Assembly (NCBI RefSeq): GCF_018256155.1
Contig: NZ_JAERLY010000001.1
Span: forward strand, 248,001 to 312,000
Origin: Gluconobacter sp. Dm-62
GTDB lineage: Bacteria > Pseudomonadota > Alphaproteobacteria > Acetobacterales > Acetobacteraceae
DNA: 64,000 bases
Reading direction: 5' to 3'
The notes below the pieces were generated by a model. The model saw nothing but the letters and a program-made list of their open reading frames with translations, searched no databases and had not been told where the DNA came from. Numbering within the stretch: position 1 is the first letter of the stretch; every line of letters starts with the position of its first letter. Made by a program: the position numbers and the translations under genes. Positions 37,655 through 55,028 of the stretch are shown here, piece after piece.

Positions 37655-39727
37655 ATGTTCCTTCGATTTTCCCTTTGCAGCGCATCAGCACTTTTGATCG
37701 CAATTTTTTCCAGCGCAAACGCTGCTCCGTCAAAGGATGCCACACAGCTGAATGCCCTGCTGGCCATGCCCTATGGCAACGGCCTGACGGGCGCAGCCGC
37801 GGCAGATCGCCTGGCCTGGGTGGAACGTCGAAACGGCATCCGCAACATCCTGATTTCGGACGGGGGCGCCACACCTCGTAAAGTCACCACCTACACCCAG
37901 GATGATGGAACCGACCTTTGGGGACTTACTCTCAGTCCGGACGGACGGATGCTGGCGTTTGTTGAAGGTGGCGATCCGGAATATCCCAACGATCATGCCC
38001 CCAATGCAGGCAACCCGGCTGTGCCAGGCAAGGAGACGGTACATGTCATCCTGCCGGACGGTCGGACCATGGTCGCCGGAGAAGGACATACCCCGAGCTT
38101 TTCCCCGGACGGACGGCTGCTTGCCTTTATGCATGGCGGTACGCTGCTGGTCGGGCAGCCCGGCAAGGCGCCCCGCGTAGCCATGGCCACACCGGGCCAG
38201 ATCACCGCCCTGCACTGGTCTCCGGATGGGAGCCGCCTTGCGATTGAGATCGATCGTGGGTCTCATAGTCTGATTGCATTGTGGCAGAACACGAGTGGAG
38301 GCTCTGCACCGGTTTTTCTTCCCGCCGCGTTAGGAAACGATCAGGACGCAACATTTTCAGCGGACGGAAAATCCATTGCTTTCGTCCGTGCGTATAAGCC
38401 ACTGCTGACGGCCGAACGCGGTAAAGGGCATTTCTGGTCGTTACACGTCTATGACATTGCATCCAGCACCGAACGCACGCTCTGGACAGCACCGGAAGGA
38501 GCCGGAAGCCATTTCTGGGCACCGGAGGGTGTGGGTCTGACATGGACTCATGACGGACAGCTTCTTTTTCCGTGGGAAGGAAGTGGCTGGCTTCGGCTCT
38601 GCTCCTTACCAACTGCCGCCACGACGATGAAGCTACACTGCCTGACGCCAGATGGAGCTGAAATCGCCTCCTATCGACTGTCAGCAGACGGCAGTCGCGT
38701 ATATTATACGGCCAATATCGGCGATCCGGATCATTGGCGTGCATGGTCACAGCCACTGAATGGCAGCCAGCCCATTGCCCTGAGCGATACAAATGAGCAG
38801 GTCATGGATCTGACAACGGCAGGGTCGGCCATTGCCATGATGGCTACGAGTGTTACCCAGCCTGCGCATCCGGTCGTGCTGCAGGACCACAACCGAAGGC
38901 TGCCTGTTACGCCAGTTGTTCCAGCCGGCTTCAAATTTGTGACGCCGCAAGAAGTGAATATCCACAGCGACGATGGTCGTGACATTCACGGGCAACTGTT
39001 CCTGCCTCCGGCAGGAGATGCCGGGACCCATCCGGCTCTGGTCTTCGTTCACGGTGGACCACACCGGCAGATGCTCCCGGCATTCAATGCCATGGGCTAC
39101 TATTCCAATGCCTATGCCATGAACCAGTTTCTGGCCTCACGAGGTTACATCGTCCTGGCGGTGAATTATCGTAGCGGAACCGGCTATGGTCTCTCGTTTA
39201 GGGATGCACCTGGTATCGGCCGGGCGGGAGCCAGCGAATATGGTGACGTTCACGCAGCTGGCCTCTTCCTGCGCAATCGTTCTGATGTAACCCCGGGCCG
39301 GATCGGGATCTGGGGCGGTAGCTGGGGTGGATATCTGACCGCCCTGGCGCTTGCCCGCAACAGCGATCTGTTCGTGGCCGGAGCCGACTTTCATGGCGTC
39401 CATGACATGACCGAACCAGATCATGCCGGGCTGTCCCCCGACGAAAAACAGAGGGAAAAAGAAAGCGAGTGGCGTTCATCGCCTATTGCGGACATCGCGC
39501 ATTGGCGCTCGCCAGTCCTGCTGATCCATGGAGATGACGACTATAACGTTGAATTCGAACAATCCGTTTTGCTGGCCCGCATGCTCGTAGCGCGGAATAT
39601 CCCATTCGAAGATCACGTCTTCCCGGGCGAGCGTCACGCCTTCCTGCGCACGCAGGACTGGCAGAGCGCCTATCTGTGGACACTGCGCTTCTTCGACGCG
39701 AAGCTGGCCGCAGGCGAGTCCCGATGA
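37655..39727 (+). CDS. Exported S9-family prolyl-oligopeptidase-like peptidase
   Basis: 690 residues: a signal peptide (to about ANAA), a beta-propeller of repeated LSPDGRMLAF/FSADGKSIAF type blades, and a C-terminal alpha/beta hydrolase domain. The catalytic triad is Ser556 in GGSWGGY, Asp in the GDDDYN segment at about 627-629, and His661 in GERHAF. It starts five bases after the preceding stop. Members cut short peptides after proline or acyl-amino acids (acylaminoacyl-peptidase type). Here it completes a set of exported hydrolases. The preferred bond is not evident. Confidence 0.9.
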   Translation: MFLRFSLCSASALLIAIFSSANAAPSKDATQLNALLAMPYGNGLTGAAAADRLAWVERRNGIRNILISDGGATPRKVTTYTQDDGTDLWGLTLSPDGRMLAFVEGGDPEYPNDHAPNAGNPAVPGKETVHVILPDGRTMVAGEGHTPSFSPDGRLLAFMHGGTLLVGQPGKAPRVAMATPGQITALHWSPDGSRLAIEIDRGSHSLIALWQNTSGGSAPVFLPAALGNDQDATFSADGKSIAFVRAYKPLLTAERGKGHFWSLHVYDIASSTERTLWTAPEGAGSHFWAPEGVGLTWTHDGQLLFPWEGSGWLRLCSLPTAATTMKLHCLTPDGAEIASYRLSADGSRVYYTANIGDPDHWRAWSQPLNGSQPIALSDTNEQVMDLTTAGSAIAMMATSVTQPAHPVVLQDHNRRLPVTPVVPAGFKFVTPQEVNIHSDDGRDIHGQLFLPPAGDAGTHPALVFVHGGPHRQMLPAFNAMGYYSNAYAMNQFLASRGYIVLAVNYRSGTGYGLSFRDAPGIGRAGASEYGDVHAAGLFLRNRSDVTPGRIGIWGGSWGGYLTALALARNSDLFVAGADFHGVHDMTEPDHAGLSPDEKQREKESEWRSSPIADIAHWRSPVLLIHGDDDYNVEFEQSVLLARMLVARNIPFEDHVFPGERHAFLRTQDWQSAYLWTLRFFDAKLAAGESR

Positions 39728-47217: not shown

Positions 47218-47299
47218 AACGAGAATTCCAGTTGACGGGCGCTTTTCAACAACCCTACATGCGATCGATTCTCATTTGCAAGAGCAAAGGTTTTCCGCA

Positions 47300-49624
47300 A
47301 TGCCAAGGTTCTGCCCGCGACCACGTCGCATCTTCTTTTCCCATATGCTGGCAACCACGGCGCTGGCCTGCGCCTGCGTCACACCTGCTCTTGCAGCTCC
47401 TCTGGATCCTGATCAGAGGACGTCCAAGTCCGCCGTTTCCACGACCACTCCCAAAACAAACACAGGCTCTACGGTCTCCCCTCAAGCCTCGATTGCATTG
47501 CCCACCGTGAAGGTGAAGGGGGCTCAGGACATTATTGATTCAATGAAATTCGATCCCGATGCCGATCACAGTTCTATTGGTATGGCCGGAGTTCTCACTA
47601 CGACGACCACGTACAAGACGTTCCGCGACCGGCAGATTGACAGTCTGGAAGACTATTCCCGTCGCGTGGATGCATCAGTGAATTACAGTGCCGGAAATTC
47701 CAGCATCAACATTCGCGGCCTTGATCAGAACCGTATCCAGACAACCATTGATGGTGTCCGCATGCCTTGGGCGAATGATGGTGCGTATGCCGGGTCGTTC
47801 AGCACCGCGCAGGGAGGTGTCAGCGCCTTCGACTTCAACTCCCTTGGTGCCATTGATGTGGTCAAAAGTGCGGATTCCAGCTTCTTTGGTACAGGTTCTC
47901 TCGGTGGCGTCATCGCCCTCAGGACACTTGATCCGGAAGATGTTCTCAAACCGGGCAAGACGTTCGGCGGGATTACGAAACTGACCTATAATGGATCTGC
48001 GGAAGCCGCTCTTCTCGATCAGGCGTTTGCCGCCCGCTATAAGAACACGGTCTTCCTGCTTCAGGGCGGTTACCAGAACGGGAGCGAAACAGGAAACGAG
48101 GGAAACACCTACGGTTACGGGCGTACCCGAACCGCCAAAAACCCGGCCAGCTACAGTCAGGGCAGTTTTCTTGGCAAGATCCGCCATTATTTCGAAGGCG
48201 GGCATCGGATCGGCCTGACGGGCGAATGGTTCGATCGCAATTACAATGAACGGACACGGACGTCTGAATCCACTGCCACTGATCACTATACAACCAAAAG
48301 CGAAAACCAGCGGTCGCGTATTTCGGGAAATTACGATTATCAGGGCGAGACGCCAACGTCACTCTTTAGCGAAGCTCATTTCCTGGCGTATTGGCAACAG
48401 ATCAAAACCGATACTGACATTACCAACAATGATACCGCAAAGGCTTCCACCTATACTCACGAACACCTTTCTCTACCGGTGCAATCCTATGGTGTGAAAG
48501 GTTCAGCTACGAACAATATCTTTACTGGTCCGCTTCATCACGTCATCACCTATGGTGGTGAAGCCTTCCTGACGGATACATACCAGACCCAGACCGGTCA
48601 GCACGCCACATCCAGCCCTTATGTGCATGACAATTTTTCGGACATGCCAAAGGTTCATGGCACCGATCTTGGCGCACTGGTGCAGGATCGTATCGGCATG
48701 GGTGCGAACGAATGGTTCCACATTACGCCCGGTTTCCGGTTCGACTATTTCCAGCGTGATCCCCACAATACCGCCTCCTACCGGGCCAATGCCGGCTACA
48801 CCGGCCTGCCACATGGGGCTCATGGATCGCATTTTTCTCCTAAAGTTCTCGTCGAGGGCAAGGTCACGAAGGATCTGACGCTTTATGGCCTGTACTCGCA
48901 GGCCTATCGCGCGCCGTCTGCGACAGAAGAATATCTGAATTACAGTACGGCCCCCTTCTATCAGGTTGTCGGTAATCCCAATCTCAAGCCTGAAAGCAGT
49001 AAGGGTTGGGAAGTTGGTTTGAAATATGGGGACTCCGAGCACGGTATCAATGTGTCCTTTTACGATAACTATTATAAAAATTATATCGATATGGATGGTA
49101 TTACCGGGTGTTCCGGTTATTACCTGTGCTACGGCTATATCAATCTTTCACATGTTCGCATTTACGGTACTGAAGCCAACGTTCACTGGGCCTTTGACAA
49201 GCACTGGCACACATGGGGATCGTTTTCCTATACGGACGGGCGCGATACAGACATGAACTTCCATCTTGCTTCCGTTGCACCTTTTCGGGGCATCATCGGC
49301 TTTGGATACAAGACGGACCGCTGGGGCAGCGACCTGTCAGCCACTTTCGCCACGCACCGGAATGACGCCAAATATCTGACATCGACCGGCACGCTGACCA
49401 GTCAGTGGAAGACGCCAGGTTACGTTCTTTTTGATCTGACTGGCTGGTATAGCCCTTCGTTCTACCGTCCGCTCCGTATTCAGGCCGGAATGTATAATAT
49501 CTTCAACAAAGCCTATTACAATGCGGCGTCGCTCCCTTATGGCGCATCTTCCTCATCATTGTCCGAACGTTACTACACGCAGCCGGGTCGTTCCTTCAAA
49601 GTCACTGCAAGGATTGATTTCTGA
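47300..49624 (+). CDS. hmuR: TonB-dependent haem/haemoglobin receptor
   Basis: About 774 residues from ATG 47300 (AAAGG upstream). A signal peptide ends near PALAAP, a TonB-box-like segment TVKVKGAQD follows, then the plug with INIRGLDQNRIQTTIDGVR. The barrel has AYRAPSATEEYLNY and NPNLKPESSKGWEVGLK, the paired motifs found in haem receptors, and ends in a Phe. It imports haem over the outer membrane. The stop codon overlaps the HmuT start by one base, so hmuRTUV is one operon. The gene name is by analogy with the haem uptake system. Confidence 0.9.
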   Translation: MPRFCPRPRRIFFSHMLATTALACACVTPALAAPLDPDQRTSKSAVSTTTPKTNTGSTVSPQASIALPTVKVKGAQDIIDSMKFDPDADHSSIGMAGVLTTTTTYKTFRDRQIDSLEDYSRRVDASVNYSAGNSSINIRGLDQNRIQTTIDGVRMPWANDGAYAGSFSTAQGGVSAFDFNSLGAIDVVKSADSSFFGTGSLGGVIALRTLDPEDVLKPGKTFGGITKLTYNGSAEAALLDQAFAARYKNTVFLLQGGYQNGSETGNEGNTYGYGRTRTAKNPASYSQGSFLGKIRHYFEGGHRIGLTGEWFDRNYNERTRTSESTATDHYTTKSENQRSRISGNYDYQGETPTSLFSEAHFLAYWQQIKTDTDITNNDTAKASTYTHEHLSLPVQSYGVKGSATNNIFTGPLHHVITYGGEAFLTDTYQTQTGQHATSSPYVHDNFSDMPKVHGTDLGALVQDRIGMGANEWFHITPGFRFDYFQRDPHNTASYRANAGYTGLPHGAHGSHFSPKVLVEGKVTKDLTLYGLYSQAYRAPSATEEYLNYSTAPFYQVVGNPNLKPESSKGWEVGLKYGDSEHGINVSFYDNYYKNYIDMDGITGCSGYYLCYGYINLSHVRIYGTEANVHWAFDKHWHTWGSFSYTDGRDTDMNFHLASVAPFRGIIGFGYKTDRWGSDLSATFATHRNDAKYLTSTGTLTSQWKTPGYVLFDLTGWYSPSFYRPLRIQAGMYNIFNKAYYNAASLPYGASSSSLSERYYTQPGRSFKVTARIDF

Positions 49625-50568
49625 TGACGATCCGTCAGCCTCACCCGACGCGCCGCAAATTCGTCGTTTCCGTAGGGCTGCCAGCAACGCTGGCCCTGAT
49701 CGGCGGTACGTTACAGTCGGCATATGCTGACAGTGCACAGCCGCAATCCATCCGCGACTGTCGTGGACGGATCGTCCGGCCTGGCCCTGCTAAACGGATC
49801 GTCTGTGTCGGTGGAACCATAACAGAAACACTCTATGACCTTGGTGCAGCAGACCGCATCGTCGGCATCGACATCACTTCGACATGGCCGCCGCAGGCAC
49901 TCAAGGAAAAGACGTCTGTAGGGTACATGCGTACTCTGTCCGCAGAGGGAGTGCTCTCTTTGCAGCCGGATCTCATTCTGGTCATGAACGATGCGGGTCC
50001 GCCTGCGGCACTACAGCAACTGGTGGCATCTGGCACCCCGCTCATCTTTGTGGATGCCACGCCTTCTGCGGAAGCCATTCGAACCCGCACCCTGTTCCTG
50101 GCTGGAATTCTGGATGCACGCGACGCGGGGCAGCGATTATGCAGACGGATCGACGACAGTTTCCACGCTCTTGCGGTTTGGCGTGCTGCCCATCCGGTCA
50201 GCCGGCGCGTATTGTTTGTCATGCGCATGACAAACGGTCATCCCATGGCAGCAGGGACTGGGACCGCCGCCGATGCGGTAATCCGGCTGGCGAGCGCGCT
50301 CAACGCTGGCGAAAGCATGCAGGGCTACAAGATCGTGGATGATGAGGCTCTGGCCACACTGCATCCGGATATCATTCTGACCATGACACAGGAGGAAGCT
50401 CATCTTCGCTCACAACTGCTCGCCAACCCGGGGTTCCGGCTTACGCCCGCCGGGCAGCGCGGTGCCGTCATTTCGATGGAAGGTGAGCGTCTGCTGGGTT
50501 TTGGACCACGAACGCCGGAAGCTGCCCTTGATCTGGCCCACATGATCGAAGCTGCGGCACCCGCATGA
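49624..50568 (+). CDS. hmuT: Periplasmic haem-binding protein
   Basis: 314 residues with a Tat-like leader (HPTRRKFVVSVGLPATLALI) and the HmuT pattern: RIVCVGGTITETLYDLGAADRIVGIDITSTWP, SLQPDLILVMNDAGPPAALQQL, and a C-terminal FGPRTPEAALDLA. It carries haem from the outer-membrane receptor to the permease. Start ATG overlaps the receptor stop by one base, and its last four bases overlap the permease start. Confidence 0.9.
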   Translation: MTIRQPHPTRRKFVVSVGLPATLALIGGTLQSAYADSAQPQSIRDCRGRIVRPGPAKRIVCVGGTITETLYDLGAADRIVGIDITSTWPPQALKEKTSVGYMRTLSAEGVLSLQPDLILVMNDAGPPAALQQLVASGTPLIFVDATPSAEAIRTRTLFLAGILDARDAGQRLCRRIDDSFHALAVWRAAHPVSRRVLFVMRMTNGHPMAAGTGTAADAVIRLASALNAGESMQGYKIVDDEALATLHPDIILTMTQEEAHLRSQLLANPGFRLTPAGQRGAVISMEGERLLGFGPRTPEAALDLAHMIEAAAPA

Positions 50569-51593
50569 TCATTGCCCGTCCTTCGTCCATCATCGTTCTG
50601 CTGGGCTTGATGGTTCTGCTAATCATAGCGACTGCCGGGGCTCTGATGGTCGGAGCGACGGGCCTTGGTTTCCGAAACCTTCTGCATGTCGGCATCAATG
50701 GAAAGCATGATGCCTCATGGCTGATTGTAACCCAGATCCGTGGGCCCCGGGCATTTCTGGCCATTCTGGCGGGTGCGGCTCTGGCGGCATCAGGAACAGT
50801 CATGCAGGGACTGTTTCGCAACCCTCTGGCCGATCCCGGACTGATCGGGGTCTCCTCTGGCGCTGCTCTTGGCGCCGCGATCATGATTGTTTTGGGCGGC
50901 GCAGGATCTGTACCGGACTTTCTGTCTGACTGGATGGTCCTGATCAGCGGCATGATCGGAAGCCTTGTCTGCACGACACTGCTCTATGTTTTTGCCACCC
51001 GCAACGGCTTGACCTCCACGACACTGATCATGCTCGCCGGTGTGGCACTGGGAGCGTTCTCAGGTGCCATAACAGGCATTCTGATTTTCCGGGCGAATGA
51101 TACGGCCCTGAGAGATCTGACCTTCTGGACAATGGGAAGCCTGTCCGGTGCGGCCTGGTCACATAATCTCGTCCTGCTGCCTTTCCTGCTGGTTGCAGCA
51201 ATCCTCATGACTTTAATCGCTAAGCCCCTGAACGCCCTGTTGCTGGGCGAGGACAATGCCAGCCTCATGGGTTACCCGGTTCAGCGCATCAAATGTCTGG
51301 CCATGTTTGGTGTCGCCTTCGCAACCGGTCCGGTCGTTGCCTGTGTTGGTGTCATCGGATTTATCGGGGTCGTGGTGCCCCATCTGGTCCGCCTTGTAAC
51401 AGGACCGGACCATCGTATCCTGTTGCCGGCGAGCGCCCTGCTGGGAGCCTCACTTCTCCTGGTTTCTGACACACTGGCACGGGTAATTGCCCTTCCTGCT
51501 GACGTCCCTGTCGGTGTCGTAACGGCCGCTATTGGGGCGCCTGCCTTCATCTGGCTTCTGACCCGCAGCCATCAGGCGGATATTCCGTCATGA
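50565..51593 (+). CDS. hmuU: Haem ABC transporter permease
   Basis: 342 residues with about nine to ten membrane segments of the FecCD type: RGPRAFLAILAGAALAASGTVMQGLFRNPLADPGLIGVSSGAALG and FIGVVVPHLVRLVTGPDHR. It forms the inner-membrane pore for haem. It overlaps hmuT and hmuV by four bases each, which fits coupled translation. Confidence 0.93.
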   Translation: MIIARPSSIIVLLGLMVLLIIATAGALMVGATGLGFRNLLHVGINGKHDASWLIVTQIRGPRAFLAILAGAALAASGTVMQGLFRNPLADPGLIGVSSGAALGAAIMIVLGGAGSVPDFLSDWMVLISGMIGSLVCTTLLYVFATRNGLTSTTLIMLAGVALGAFSGAITGILIFRANDTALRDLTFWTMGSLSGAAWSHNLVLLPFLLVAAILMTLIAKPLNALLLGEDNASLMGYPVQRIKCLAMFGVAFATGPVVACVGVIGFIGVVVPHLVRLVTGPDHRILLPASALLGASLLLVSDTLARVIALPADVPVGVVTAAIGAPAFIWLLTRSHQADIPS

Positions 51594-52396
51594 GCCTGCA
51601 GATGAAGGATGTCTCATATGGGCTTGGTGGTTGCGTGCTTCTGAATGGGATCAGCTTTTCTGTTAACCCGGGCGAGGTCGTTACCGTTATCGGTCCAAAT
51701 GGTGCCGGGAAAAGCACATTACTGCGCCTGGCAGCAGGGCTTCTGGCGCCATCTGCGGGCCAGATCACCCTTGATGACCGTGATCTTTCGACATTTTCAG
51801 GTGCCGACCTTGCGAAACGTCGTGCCATGCTCGCACAGGACTCACAGCTCCGGGCGCGTTTTTCCGTTCGGGAGCTTGCAGTGCTGGGGAGGTTGGGATG
51901 TTCTGTTACCCGGCTTTCAGAAGACAGGGTAACGCGGGCTCTGGAAGATGTCGGTCTTGCCCATCTTGCAGAACGGGACATTCTCAGTCTCTCAGGTGGA
52001 GAGCGTCAGAGGGCCCATTTCGCACGGGTTCTGGTGCAGCTTCGCAGTACGCATGAGCGCTCACGTCTCCTGCTGCTGGATGAGCCGATTTCAGCTCAGG
52101 ACCCTGCACGACAGAAACTGATCCTGACTCTTGCGCGCGCCCATGCCCATGAACGTGGCGGGTCCTGTCTGATGGTTCTACACGACCTTAACTGGGCCGC
52201 AGCAGTATCGGACCGGATCATTGTCCTCCATGAAGGGCGCATTCATGCAGAAGGCAGCCCTGCGGAAATTTTGACCACGGATATACTGACGACCACCTTC
52301 CGTATCGCGGGCCAACCCGTGCATGTTCATGAAGGCTCCGGCAGACCATTCATTATACCACACGACATGATTCACCCGGCTCTTCACGCTCTTTAG
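51590..52396 (+). CDS. hmuV: Haem ABC transporter ATP-binding protein
   Basis: 268 residues with Walker A GPNGAGKS at 35-42, the signature LSGGERQRAHFARVLVQL at about 134-151 (closest to HmuV-type ATPases), Walker B LLLLDEPISAQD and H-loop VLHDLNW. It is the energising subunit of the haem importer. Confidence 0.93.
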   Translation: MSLQMKDVSYGLGGCVLLNGISFSVNPGEVVTVIGPNGAGKSTLLRLAAGLLAPSAGQITLDDRDLSTFSGADLAKRRAMLAQDSQLRARFSVRELAVLGRLGCSVTRLSEDRVTRALEDVGLAHLAERDILSLSGGERQRAHFARVLVQLRSTHERSRLLLLDEPISAQDPARQKLILTLARAHAHERGGSCLMVLHDLNWAAAVSDRIIVLHEGRIHAEGSPAEILTTDILTTTFRIAGQPVHVHEGSGRPFIIPHDMIHPALHAL

Positions 52397-52510: not shown

Positions 52511-53266
52511 TCAACTGGCTTTTGCCATCAGATCGCGGGCATGGTCAGCCAGAGTGTGCAGGCTGCTCATGGACGTATCGGCGACCATACTGATCCCCAA
52601 CCCGTTCTGGGCCCAGAGATAACCCGGCAGATGCTGCATCGGACGCATGGGGGCAGTAACGTCCACACCATACATGGGACGCACAAACAGGGAGATCCGT
52701 GCGCCGCTGTTATCTTTATAGAAGAAGACGCAGGCCGGACCATGATCGGTCGTAACCAGTTGTCCGCCCACAAGGTGATAGCCTGCTGCGGACAGATCCG
52801 GTGGCTGTACCGGGCGCCCCAACATTTTCCCGCCCCATGCTGTGAGTTGCACAACATTGCTTTCCGTAATCGTGCTCCCTTTGCTGGCCTCACGCACGAT
52901 GGTCGCTTCCTGTTCAACGGCAGCCAACCCGACGGGTACGCGGCGATCACGGAGGAACCATCCGCTGTCAAACCCTATCGACAGTGCAATGGCGATGGAG
53001 GCTGCCATTCGGGGCATGCTGGAATGCATGGCGCTCCGTTGCCGCAGGTTTGAAATATTGAAGCGCGCCGGTATGGGCTGCCGGAGTTCCGCCCCCAGTC
53101 CGGCACGGAGGGCCTCACGCTCGTTTTTCCATGTCATGACACGCTGCAATGTCTCGGGATGACTTTCGAGCCAGTCCTCCACTGTTCGCAGGCGTTCGGG
53201 AGACAGAAATCCATCAACCCAGGCCTGCAGATCATCTTCGGTCACGGGGCGATCAGGCTGTGTCAT
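52511..53266 (-). CDS. Membrane anti-sigma factor of an ECF sigma factor
   Basis: 251 residues. An N-terminal acidic helical region (EDDLQAWVDGFLSPERLRTVEDWL) resembles the ECF-binding part of ChrR/RsiW-type anti-sigma factors. One membrane segment spans about residues 86-104, and the rest is a periplasmic domain. Its start overlaps the sigma factor gene by four bases. It presumably holds the sigma factor until a signal is sensed. The signal is likely oxidative or light-related given the divergent catalase-like gene, an inference. Confidence 0.82.
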   Translation of the reverse strand: MTQPDRPVTEDDLQAWVDGFLSPERLRTVEDWLESHPETLQRVMTWKNEREALRAGLGAELRQPIPARFNISNLRQRSAMHSSMPRMAASIAIALSIGFDSGWFLRDRRVPVGLAAVEQEATIVREASKGSTITESNVVQLTAWGGKMLGRPVQPPDLSAAGYHLVGGQLVTTDHGPACVFFYKDNSGARISLFVRPMYGVDVTAPMRPMQHLPGYLWAQNGLGISMVADTSMSSLHTLADHARDLMAKAS

Positions 53267-53769
53267 TTCACTCTCCGGAGCACAGGGCGTTCTTCATGCT
53301 CGACAAGACTGTGCAGGGCAGCACGTGCACGGGAAAGGCGTGACATCACGGTCCCGATCGGCAGATCCAGAATTTCTGCAACTACGCCATATTGAAGCCC
53401 TTCAACACTCACCAGCATCATGATCTGTCGATGATCATCAGACAGATGTCCAAACGCCTGAACCACTTCCTGCCACTCCAGATAAGGGAGCTGGTCGGCC
53501 TCCTGCAACTGTTCAGGCTGCATGGATTCCGTCCATGACACGAAGCGCCGGAAACGCCGCCAGTGATTGACGTTGAGACGATGCGCGATCGTGAACAGCC
53601 ACGCGCGCAGGTCAGGTTGGCCACGAACCTGATGCAGGCGCGTGAGGGCTCGCTCCAGACAATCCTGTACGAGATCATCCGCCTGCGACGGGTCGCGGGT
53701 CAGGACACGAGCATATCGTCTCAACGCCGGAATGGCGGCTTGCAACCTGAGATGCGCATCATCACTCAA
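53263..53769 (-). CDS. ECF-type RNA polymerase sigma factor
   Basis: 168 residues with region 2 (YARVLTRDPSQADDLVQDCLERALT, LRAWLFTIAHRLNVNHWRR) and region 4 (HRQIMMLVSVEGLQYGVVAEILDLPIGTVMSRLSRARAAL). No in-frame ATG precedes region 2; the start is TTG at 53769, with AAAGG about ten bases upstream. It overlaps the anti-sigma gene, forming a standard pair. An ECF-type promoter motif lies upstream, so it probably controls itself. Confidence 0.9.
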   Translation of the reverse strand: MSDDAHLRLQAAIPALRRYARVLTRDPSQADDLVQDCLERALTRLHQVRGQPDLRAWLFTIAHRLNVNHWRRFRRFVSWTESMQPEQLQEADQLPYLEWQEVVQAFGHLSDDHRQIMMLVSVEGLQYGVVAEILDLPIGTVMSRLSRARAALHSLVEHEERPVLRRVK

Positions 53770-53805
53770 CTCCGTCTTTGCCTTTCACAGGGTCACTCTC
53801 CCAGA

Positions 53806-53834
53806 CAAAGACGTTCTGGGAGGCAATTTATTCC
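53806..53834 (-). promoter_or_regulatory. ECF-type promoter for the sigma/anti-sigma operon
   Basis: On the minus strand GGAATA (53834-53829) is followed after 15 bases by CGTCTT (53813-53808). The wider strings GGAATAAAT and CGTCTTTG are shared with the facing copy. It lies just upstream of the sigma gene. Confidence 0.6.
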
Positions 53835-53883
53835 GCATCAAACAGCCGAATACGAAAATATTTTTCAGTAACGCGTTTTCCTG

Positions 53884-53911
53884 GGAATAAATCCAGCCTG
53901 CCTGACGTCTT
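53884..53911 (+). promoter_or_regulatory. ECF-type promoter for the catalase-like gene
   Basis: GGAATA (53884-53889) is followed after 16 bases by CGTCTT (53906-53911). The same GGAATAAAT and CGTCTTTG occur in the divergent copy, which suggests both are read by the ECF sigma factor encoded beside them. Confidence 0.62.
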
Positions 53912-53942: not shown

Positions 53943-55028
53943 ATGGCTCAAAAACCTGCACGCCCACCCATGCTGGCCCTACGCTGGCTTGGCGTTGGTG
54001 CCGTACCTGCGGCACTTGCGTTGGCCTTCCTCTGGACTAGCGCCTGTTTTTCTCCCGCCCGTGTAACGCAGAACCGCCTGATGAGCGAACTGCATAACGC
54101 CGGAAGCTACGGACATGGTTTCCGAAGAGCTCACGCCAAGGGAGTCTGTGTCAGCGGATGGTTTGATGCGAGCGGTGAAGCTTCGCATCTGTCACGCGCG
54201 GCCGTGTTCCATGAGCAGCATGTACCGGTTATTGGGCGGTTCGCTCTTGCTGTAGGGCAGCCTTATGCGCCGGATAGCACAGCCACCGTGAGGAGTATGG
54301 CGCTGCGCTTCACGCCACCCGACGCACCTGAATGGCGGACGGGTATGAATGACCCACCGGTTCTGCCGCTGCGCGATGCGCATGATGTGTCAGATTTTTT
54401 TGCATCGCAGCAGATCGATCCGGCAACCGGAAAGCCTGATCCGGCCCGAATGAAAGCGTTTGGCGCGACCCATCCCTGGCTTAAATCCGCAGCCGCAGAA
54501 AATGCTCATCGCCTTATTTCATCGGGGTTCGCAGACGATACGTTTCACAGCCTCAATAGCTTTGTCCTGAGCGCCGCAGACGGTACGACAACACCGGTTC
54601 GTTGGGCGATGATCCCAACGCAACCGGTTGCGCCAAGTGATGTGCAAGGCGGCGATCATGAATATCTGTTCCGCAAACTTATTGATGACATTCACGGCCA
54701 CCCCCTGCACTGGCATTTGGTAATAACTGTGGCGGGTGCGCATGACGCCATCAATGATCCCAGCCAGATCTGGGCACAGAATGACCAGACGATCGATGCC
54801 GGAACCTTGACCCTGAATTCCATTGAAAGCGAGGATGACGGGCCCTGCACGGGCATCACCTTTGATCCGCTCGTTTTGCCGCCGGGCATTCAACCGTCGG
54901 ATGATCCGATCCTTCAGGTGCGCTCAGCCGCTTACATGCGGTCATTTTCACTCCGCTCTGGCGAAAAACATAGCCCAAGCGCTGTAACGACCAACCTGAT
55001 TCAGGCCTCTGAAAGCAAAAAATCATGA
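53943..55028 (+). CDS. Catalase-like (SrpA-type) exported haem peroxidase
   Basis: About 361 residues from ATG 53943. A membrane anchor or signal spans residues 14-34. The catalase distal His64 lies in RRAHAKGVCVSGWF, and the C-terminal VRSAAYMRSFSLRSGE fits the proximal Tyr segment of small catalase-related peroxidases. The protein is much shorter than a monofunctional catalase, as expected for SrpA-type proteins, which have peroxidase activity. The stop overlaps the cytochrome b561 start by four bases, suggesting electrons may be passed between them. Upstream ECF promoter and divergent sigma gene point to stress induction. Confidence 0.88.
   Translation: MAQKPARPPMLALRWLGVGAVPAALALAFLWTSACFSPARVTQNRLMSELHNAGSYGHGFRRAHAKGVCVSGWFDASGEASHLSRAAVFHEQHVPVIGRFALAVGQPYAPDSTATVRSMALRFTPPDAPEWRTGMNDPPVLPLRDAHDVSDFFASQQIDPATGKPDPARMKAFGATHPWLKSAAAENAHRLISSGFADDTFHSLNSFVLSAADGTTTPVRWAMIPTQPVAPSDVQGGDHEYLFRKLIDDIHGHPLHWHLVITVAGAHDAINDPSQIWAQNDQTIDAGTLTLNSIESEDDGPCTGITFDPLVLPPGIQPSDDPILQVRSAAYMRSFSLRSGEKHSPSAVTTNLIQASESKKS

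Follow-up and report, generated by a model that had tools for sequence, protein, structure and literature searches.

Twin candidate promoters of the ECF26 type between a sigma/anti-sigma operon and a divergent catalase-like/cytochrome b561 operon in Gluconobacter sp. Dm-62

Described ECF26 sigma factors and related systems

Promoters of ECF26 sigma factors have the cross-species consensus GGAATA/GT, and the S. meliloti ECF26 promoter before SMc01418-rpoE1 includes GGAATAAATCCATAGCCCTCCGTGTCTTATCC (PMC6180224). RpoE1 (EcfR1) of S. meliloti resembles the locus analysed here in its GGAATA/GT consensus, its autoregulated sigma/anti-sigma operon (predicted here) and its membrane anti-sigma factor, but it differs in responding to sulfite, in being preceded by a putative lipoprotein gene and in that the text consulted lists no catalase-like gene among the targets (PMC6180224, PMC3511301). 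RpoE4, likewise a characterised ECF26 sigma factor, also responds to sulfite (PMC6180224, PMC3511301). The listed targets of RpoE1 and RpoE3 include the cytochrome b-like SMc01022, which may be compared with the b561 gene found here; the ECF26 sigmas of S. meliloti cross-activate one another's promoters, and the authors call the activation of ECF26 hypothetical (PMC6180224). The promoter type treated here (ECF26) is already known.

Two other kinds of system were considered. RpoE-ChrR (ECF11) is likewise an ECF/anti-sigma pair with an oxidative-stress regulon, but its promoter is of the TGATCC/CGTA type, whereas the C-terminal half of the anti-sigma factor here is RseB/MucB-like. In RseA/RseB and MucA/MucB, the C-terminal domain of RseB/MucB resembles the predicted periplasmic domain of the anti-sigma factor here; unlike in those systems, the RseB-like domain would be fused to the anti-sigma factor itself, and the large lipid-binding domain that RseB has is missing.

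In biofilms of B. cenocepacia J2315, the divergent genes BCAL3478 (putative sigma factor) and BCAL3477 (putative catalase) were upregulated together after H2O2 treatment (PMC2830190, 2010). Fold changes by qPCR at 15, 30 and 60 min were 1.7, 6.5 and 23.1 for BCAL3477 and NS, 5.5 and 16.6 for BCAL3478, so induction was late, and both genes were unchanged by hypochlorite in the table of that study (PMC2830190). Its authors found the similarity remarkable, left the role open and thought the induction of the catalase gene to be indirect (PMC2830190). The pair is like the present locus in its adjacent, divergent sigma and catalase genes, and its genus widely carries the twin-site module described below; it is unlike it in that the regulation was left unexplained, with no promoter or anti-sigma factor analysed in the available parts of the paper (PMC2830190). 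Beyond that study, a wiring of an ECF sigma factor to a catalase-like/b561 pair was not described in the open-licence literature searched; the ECF classifications of 2009 and 2021, which lie outside that scope, may mention the context. Two candidates for a described counterpart were rejected: PSPTO_1043, which is of the RpoE-ChrR type with a different promoter, and ecf18 of P. syringae B728a, for which neither catalase nor b561 is mentioned in the main text of its paper.

The locus and its paired sites

The window, a 64 kb stretch of the genome, contains two divergent gene pairs separated by a gap of 173 bases, counted from the sigma start (TTG, 53769) to the catalase-like ATG (53943), and GGAATAAAT and CGTCTTTG occur in this gap on both strands (Table 1). 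A first-pass annotation had described identical −35 and −10 strings in both orientations within one gap, at spacings of 15 and 16 bases, which the sequence of both strands confirmed. The coordinates likewise place one site before the sigma/anti-sigma genes and one before the catalase-like/b561 genes, as it had stated. The catalase-like ATG lies 31 bases past the end of its −10, and the sigma start, calculated from the coordinates, 38 bases past the end of its own. Each promoter would serve a two-gene operon, since the genes of both pairs overlap by 4 bases. An extra CGTCTTTG lies at 53773-53780 (+), just upstream of the sigma start codon and without a −35 partner; it is inverted relative to the −10 string of the sigma promoter and is possibly due to chance.

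Table 1. Genes and predicted promoters of the divergent locus (window coordinates)
Feature	Position	Strand	Evidence
Anti-sigma factor, 251 aa	52511..53266	-	4-base overlap with the sigma stop; kept beside sigma in relatives
ECF sigma factor, 168 aa, TTG start	53263..53769	-	Pfam sigma-70 region 2 and region 4 (PF04542, PF08281)
Sigma-facing promoter (predicted)	53808..53834	-	GGAATA (−35, 53834-53829), N15, CGTCTT (−10, 53813-53808); 4/4 family alignment rows; 24/24 divergent loci (best 80 of at least 548 relatives)
Catalase-facing promoter (predicted)	53884..53911	+	GGAATA (−35, 53884-53889), N16, CGTCTT (−10, 53906-53911); strict site in 0/22 family operons without adjacent sigma gene
Catalase-like (catalase-related peroxidase) protein, 361 aa, hydrophobic N-terminal stretch	53943..55028	+	PF00199, 5.4e-24
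Cytochrome b561, 175 aa	55025..55552	+	PF01292, 3.9e-29; 4-base overlap with the catalase-like stop

A genome scan had been proposed as a check. GGAATA-N15/16-CGTCTT was found three times in the window, against a mean of 0.01 in 100 dinucleotide shuffles, none of which reached three. A search of the complete assembly (3.46 Mb in 52 contigs) found the fuller pattern GGAATAAA-N13-15-CGTCT exactly twice, both times in this gap. The third match in the window, at 39594, was attributed to chance: it lies within a 690-codon open reading frame (ORF) at 37655-39727 and scores 19.0, against a minimum of 20.6 for the conserved sites that were scored.

The looser pattern GGAATA-N14-17-CGTC occurs at 50 places in the genome, all of which were scored, with 24.2 for each twin site. 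Besides these, the score range of conserved sites was reached by one place only, at 496-520 of contig 22, whose score of 24.8 is above that of either twin. This place was rejected as a target, being antisense within a 296-codon ORF; no ORF of at least 90 codons follows within the remaining 491 bases of the contig, whose end limits the rejection. No other convincing site was seen in this consensus scan of the 50 loose places, and to the reach of such a scan the regulon in this genome looks like two transcripts. A backward-read control pattern was found at 25 places, against 50 for the forward one, so that about half of the loose places are at control level. Counts of loose GGAATA-N-CGTC places are about two to four times those of the backward control in this genome (G000) and in six of seven others (G150-G155), the exception being G156 with 14 loose places against 15 for the control; this excess may reflect composition or extra targets.

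Class of the sigma factor and conservation of the sites

The ECF26-like sigma factor encoded at 53263-53769 very probably uses the twin sites as its promoters, in an autoregulated switch whose target is the divergent catalase-like/b561 operon. An autoregulated regulon with a defined consensus had been predicted by the first-pass annotation, and comparison favours it on four grounds: the conservation of the sites, the contrast between operons with and without an adjacent sigma gene, the match to the mapped S. meliloti ECF26 promoters and the co-induction of the apparent counterpart in Burkholderia; the regulon itself came out small here, at two transcripts only.

The traits of ECF26 found here are a group IV sigma factor with regions 2 and 4 only, a GGAATA/GT promoter and a downstream anti-sigma factor whose predicted layout has an N-terminal anti-sigma domain, a weak membrane helix and a periplasmic C-terminal domain. 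Of 394 genomes from the family of the Rhizobium locus, one contains exact GGAATAAATCCATAGCCCTCCGTGTCTTATCC and a second contains a form with three mismatches; the sigmas that follow these two strings share 43% and 44% identity, respectively, with the window sigma factor, and the sigma behind an RpoE4-like promoter shares 37%. Deep forks were not resolved in a tree of 19 sigma rows. Membership of three other classes was rejected on the promoter sequence. The sites read GGAATA / CGTCTT and not the TGATCC-N-CGTA of ECF11, nor the GTAAC-N17-CGAA of ECF16 (BcrS type), and they lack the AAC in the −35 and the CGTT in the −10 of ECF15 (EcfG general stress), even though PhyR_sigma2 is the best Pfam match of the window sigma factor and NepR is weakly matched among the anti-sigma factors.

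The catalase-like protein was searched in 150 genomes of the family, and 30 loci were obtained among the matches listed. An adjacent sigma gene was found in four of the 30, and all four of these have twin sites. The catalase-like/b561 pair without a sigma match in its flanks (up to 1.5 kb each side) accounted for 22 loci, none with a strict site (Fisher P 6.7e-5 for 4/4 against 0/22, among the matches listed). One of these unwired loci (L244) has a looser CGTT variant of the site. The remaining four of the 30 listed are remote catalase-like homologues with neither b561 nor site. Similarity alone does not explain the wiring, because unwired proteins reach 51% identity to the window protein, compared with about 39-45% for the wired ones of Pseudomonas and Burkholderia. 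One family thus offers a natural experiment, with operons that have the switch and operons that do not.

This contrast bears on whether the strings could be real ECF promoters used chiefly by another ECF sigma factor of the cell, with the neighbouring one a bystander. The cross-activation of promoters by the ECF26 sigmas of S. meliloti (PMC6180224) would allow it, as would two more ECF matches in the Dm-62 genome (G000), but strict sites follow the adjacent sigma gene among the family operons listed, and the one other ECF of this genome that was compared is 37% identical to the window sigma factor, less than RpoE1; we consider this explanation unlikely.

Viewed from the sigma gene, the sigma/anti-sigma pair is present in 21 of 21 family loci (window included), four of them with a divergent catalase-like/b561 operon. 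With looser patterns, a sigma-facing site was found in 16 of the 21, and none in L071, L073, L074, L078 and L080; the last of these has a similar b561 operon, for which no site was seen with the looser patterns. Some pairs face other genes: a gene with a weak PEP-CTERM match in L065 and L066, and an uncharacterised protein, b561 and a molybdopterin oxidoreductase in L068. In all three, the outward sites belong to this type or to the CGTT variant. In sequence terms, these three loci look as if the switch changes its cargo.

Two further loci are on plasmids. A mobilizable G. oxydans plasmid (L268) carries an 88% identical sigma factor with the anti-sigma, catalase-like and b561 genes and twin sites. 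The conjugative plasmid pGS1191_1 of Gluconobacter albidus (L269) carries a 72% identical sigma factor with the anti-sigma and catalase-like genes and twin sites; an IS5-family transposase gene (about 1557-2636) stands beside the catalase-like gene at the expected place of b561, and no b561 was found in this 8.5 kb stretch. In the two genus mates of the window that were sampled, the best match reaches 34-36% identity, and the lack of a close counterpart there is consistent with a unit that is gained and lost.

A scan of named genomes covered the best 80 of at least 548 related sigma loci, with the pattern GGAATA-N15/16-CGTC and only spacings of 15 or 16 allowed. A catalase-like homologue was found in 28 of these 80. 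Where sigma and catalase-like/b561 genes are divergent, both outward sites were present in 24 of 24 loci from Alpha-, Beta- and Gammaproteobacteria; these loci are partly related (many from Pseudomonas and Burkholderia), so the counts are not independent. In both of two Methylobacterium loci among the same 80, in which the catalase-like/b561 genes lie downstream of the anti-sigma gene, both sites are present as well. L107, in which three ORFs (about 3.9 kb) separate the sigma and catalase-like genes and each retains its own site, was counted apart, and L146, whose catalase-like gene is cut by the locus end, was outside the site count. Among the 52 of the best 80 loci with no catalase-like gene in the stretch, a strict sigma-facing site occurs in six and both sites in one. 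As a control, 3394 random windows from the same loci gave one site on a given strand in four cases and both in none. The consensus belongs to a subgroup of these sigma factors, given the six of 52 catalase-less loci with a strict site and the five of 21 family loci with none.

Across 26 loci, the two −35 boxes lie anywhere between 3 and 92 bases apart, which suggests two independent promoters and not one palindrome. Two copies inverted within one gap could also be operator sites for a divergent DNA-binding regulator, but such varying distances (about 3.9 kb in L107), a copy with the internal spacing of 15 or 16 on each side in all 24 divergent loci of the best 80 of at least 548 (no other spacing being allowed) and the match of the strings to mapped ECF26 promoters (PMC6180224) make this improbable, slightly more so than service by another sigma factor.

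The gap of the window was aligned with those of the three closest relatives found in the family, and this four-way alignment has 23 invariant columns among the 24 of the boxes, compared with 46 among the other 157 intergenic ones (hypergeometric P 2.7e-10). Of the other rigid shifts of the box mask, the best scores 21, possibly a one-base shift. Another reading would be that the catalase-facing string is conserved because it encodes part of a catalase-like protein with a longer N-terminus; the longest ORF (TTG 53778, 416 codons open) and a similar long start annotated by PLSDB in L268 (2740-4038) could be cited for it. This is very improbable: L062 and L063 have their predicted start at the equivalent ATG (364 aa) in a frame that is open for 381 codons only and ends shortly before the −35 box, gaps whose lengths are not multiples of three occur in the intergenic alignment, ATG 53943 is invariant and the invariant columns cluster in the boxes. 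The start annotated in L268 sits inside the sigma gene and spans both promoters, and comparison suggests that it is too far upstream.

Among 61 Burkholderia genomes drawn, 59 have the sigma factor with an identity of at least 76%; all 30 of the loci examined carry the twin sites and, in divergent orientation, the catalase-like gene. From gene order and this wide presence in the genus, BCAL3477/3478 is apparently the counterpart of the module, and an autoregulated sigma factor acting on both operons offers a testable explanation for the co-induction of the divergent B. cenocepacia genes reported in 2010. An operon like BCAL1105-1107 (exported protein, b561, oxidoreductase), of similar kinetics, was considered as a second target and rejected, as its counterparts in L196-L198 have no site upstream. 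In three Burkholderia genomes (L183, L186 and L188), a further GGAATAAAC-N-CGTCATAC site lies before small proteins that look exported by eye, which could be additional regulon members there.

Anti-sigma factor, enzyme and proposed switch

The window anti-sigma factor has no Pfam match, zf-HC2 included. It was aligned with its relatives (45 of 71 available rows, window included), of which 12 of 45 match zf-HC2 and three of 45 weakly match NepR. Its predicted layout comprises N-terminal helices, a probable single membrane helix at about residues 87-107, which is weakly hydrophobic (1.48), and a C-terminal domain at about 141-251. The AlphaFold model has a mean pLDDT of 84.2 and a pTM of 0.58. 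In fold comparison of the model, the seven best rows all place residues of about 141-251 on RseB/MucB C-terminal domains, at 12-17% identity and with a best Z of 9.2 (RseB; 94 residues at 2.6 A). The rows that follow have Z 7.3 (N-terminal part, on ChrR, at 8.9 A rmsd) and then 7.1, and Foldseek alone gave a best E of 1.3e-3. The resemblance of the predicted periplasmic domain to the RseB/MucB C-terminal domain is thus good but not beyond doubt in the model. A disulfide switch within one chain is disfavoured, because the window anti-sigma factor has one cysteine.

The best-scoring solved structure for the catalase-like protein is 3e4w, which we take to be a 'catalase-related' peroxidase. His64, Asn136 and Tyr331, presumably the distal His, distal Asn and proximal Tyr of the catalase fold, align with catalase; the first is conserved in 30 of 31 rows and the other two in all 31 (window included, L146 omitted). 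By fold family and by these three residues, the predicted protein fits the catalase-related peroxidases (PF00199, mini-catalase type). A b561 gene stands beside the catalase-like gene on the same strand in 26 of the 30 family loci among the matches listed. The catalase-like protein is probably a periplasmic peroxidase anchored in the membrane, and the pairing suggests that it receives electrons from quinol through b561.

The proposed switch would operate as follows. In the unstressed cell, the membrane anti-sigma factor (52511-53266) would hold the sigma factor. A signal at the envelope, probably peroxide or a product of its damage, would act on the periplasmic RseB/MucB-like domain and free the sigma factor, which would then transcribe its own sigma/anti-sigma operon, for both feedback and reset, and also the divergent catalase-like/b561 operon. 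The putative membrane-anchored peroxidase would receive quinol electrons via b561, as the gene pairing suggests. Light or singlet oxygen, which had been proposed along with peroxide as exposures to try, is not favoured as the inducer: the promoters are unlike the TGATCC/CGTA type and the C-terminal half of the anti-sigma factor is RseB/MucB-like.

The comparisons assign a likely target operon to the ECF26-like sigmas of acetic acid bacteria, pseudomonads, burkholderias and Lysobacter relatives, and the predicted RseB-like sensor domain may help to explain ECF26 activation. More tentatively, a widespread ECF26 subtype could be a switch dedicated to a single target, the operon of a periplasmic quinol peroxidase, in which switch the anti-sigma factor fuses the roles of RseA and RseB and which is gained and lost as a unit, partly on plasmids, while the enzyme operon is widely present unwired; we regard this wider reading as possible and rather doubtful.

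A haem-uptake-like cluster adjoins the anti-sigma gene at 47276-52396 (+), comprising a TonB-dependent haem-type receptor, a periplasmic binding protein, a FecCD permease and an ATPase. These genes were rejected as part of the system, since receptor, binding protein and permease were not found in the 20 other family stretches of 10-20 kb each, which have scattered ATPase similarity only. All 31 aligned rows of the catalase-like protein keep both Cys69 and Cys302, one of which is close to the distal haem histidine.
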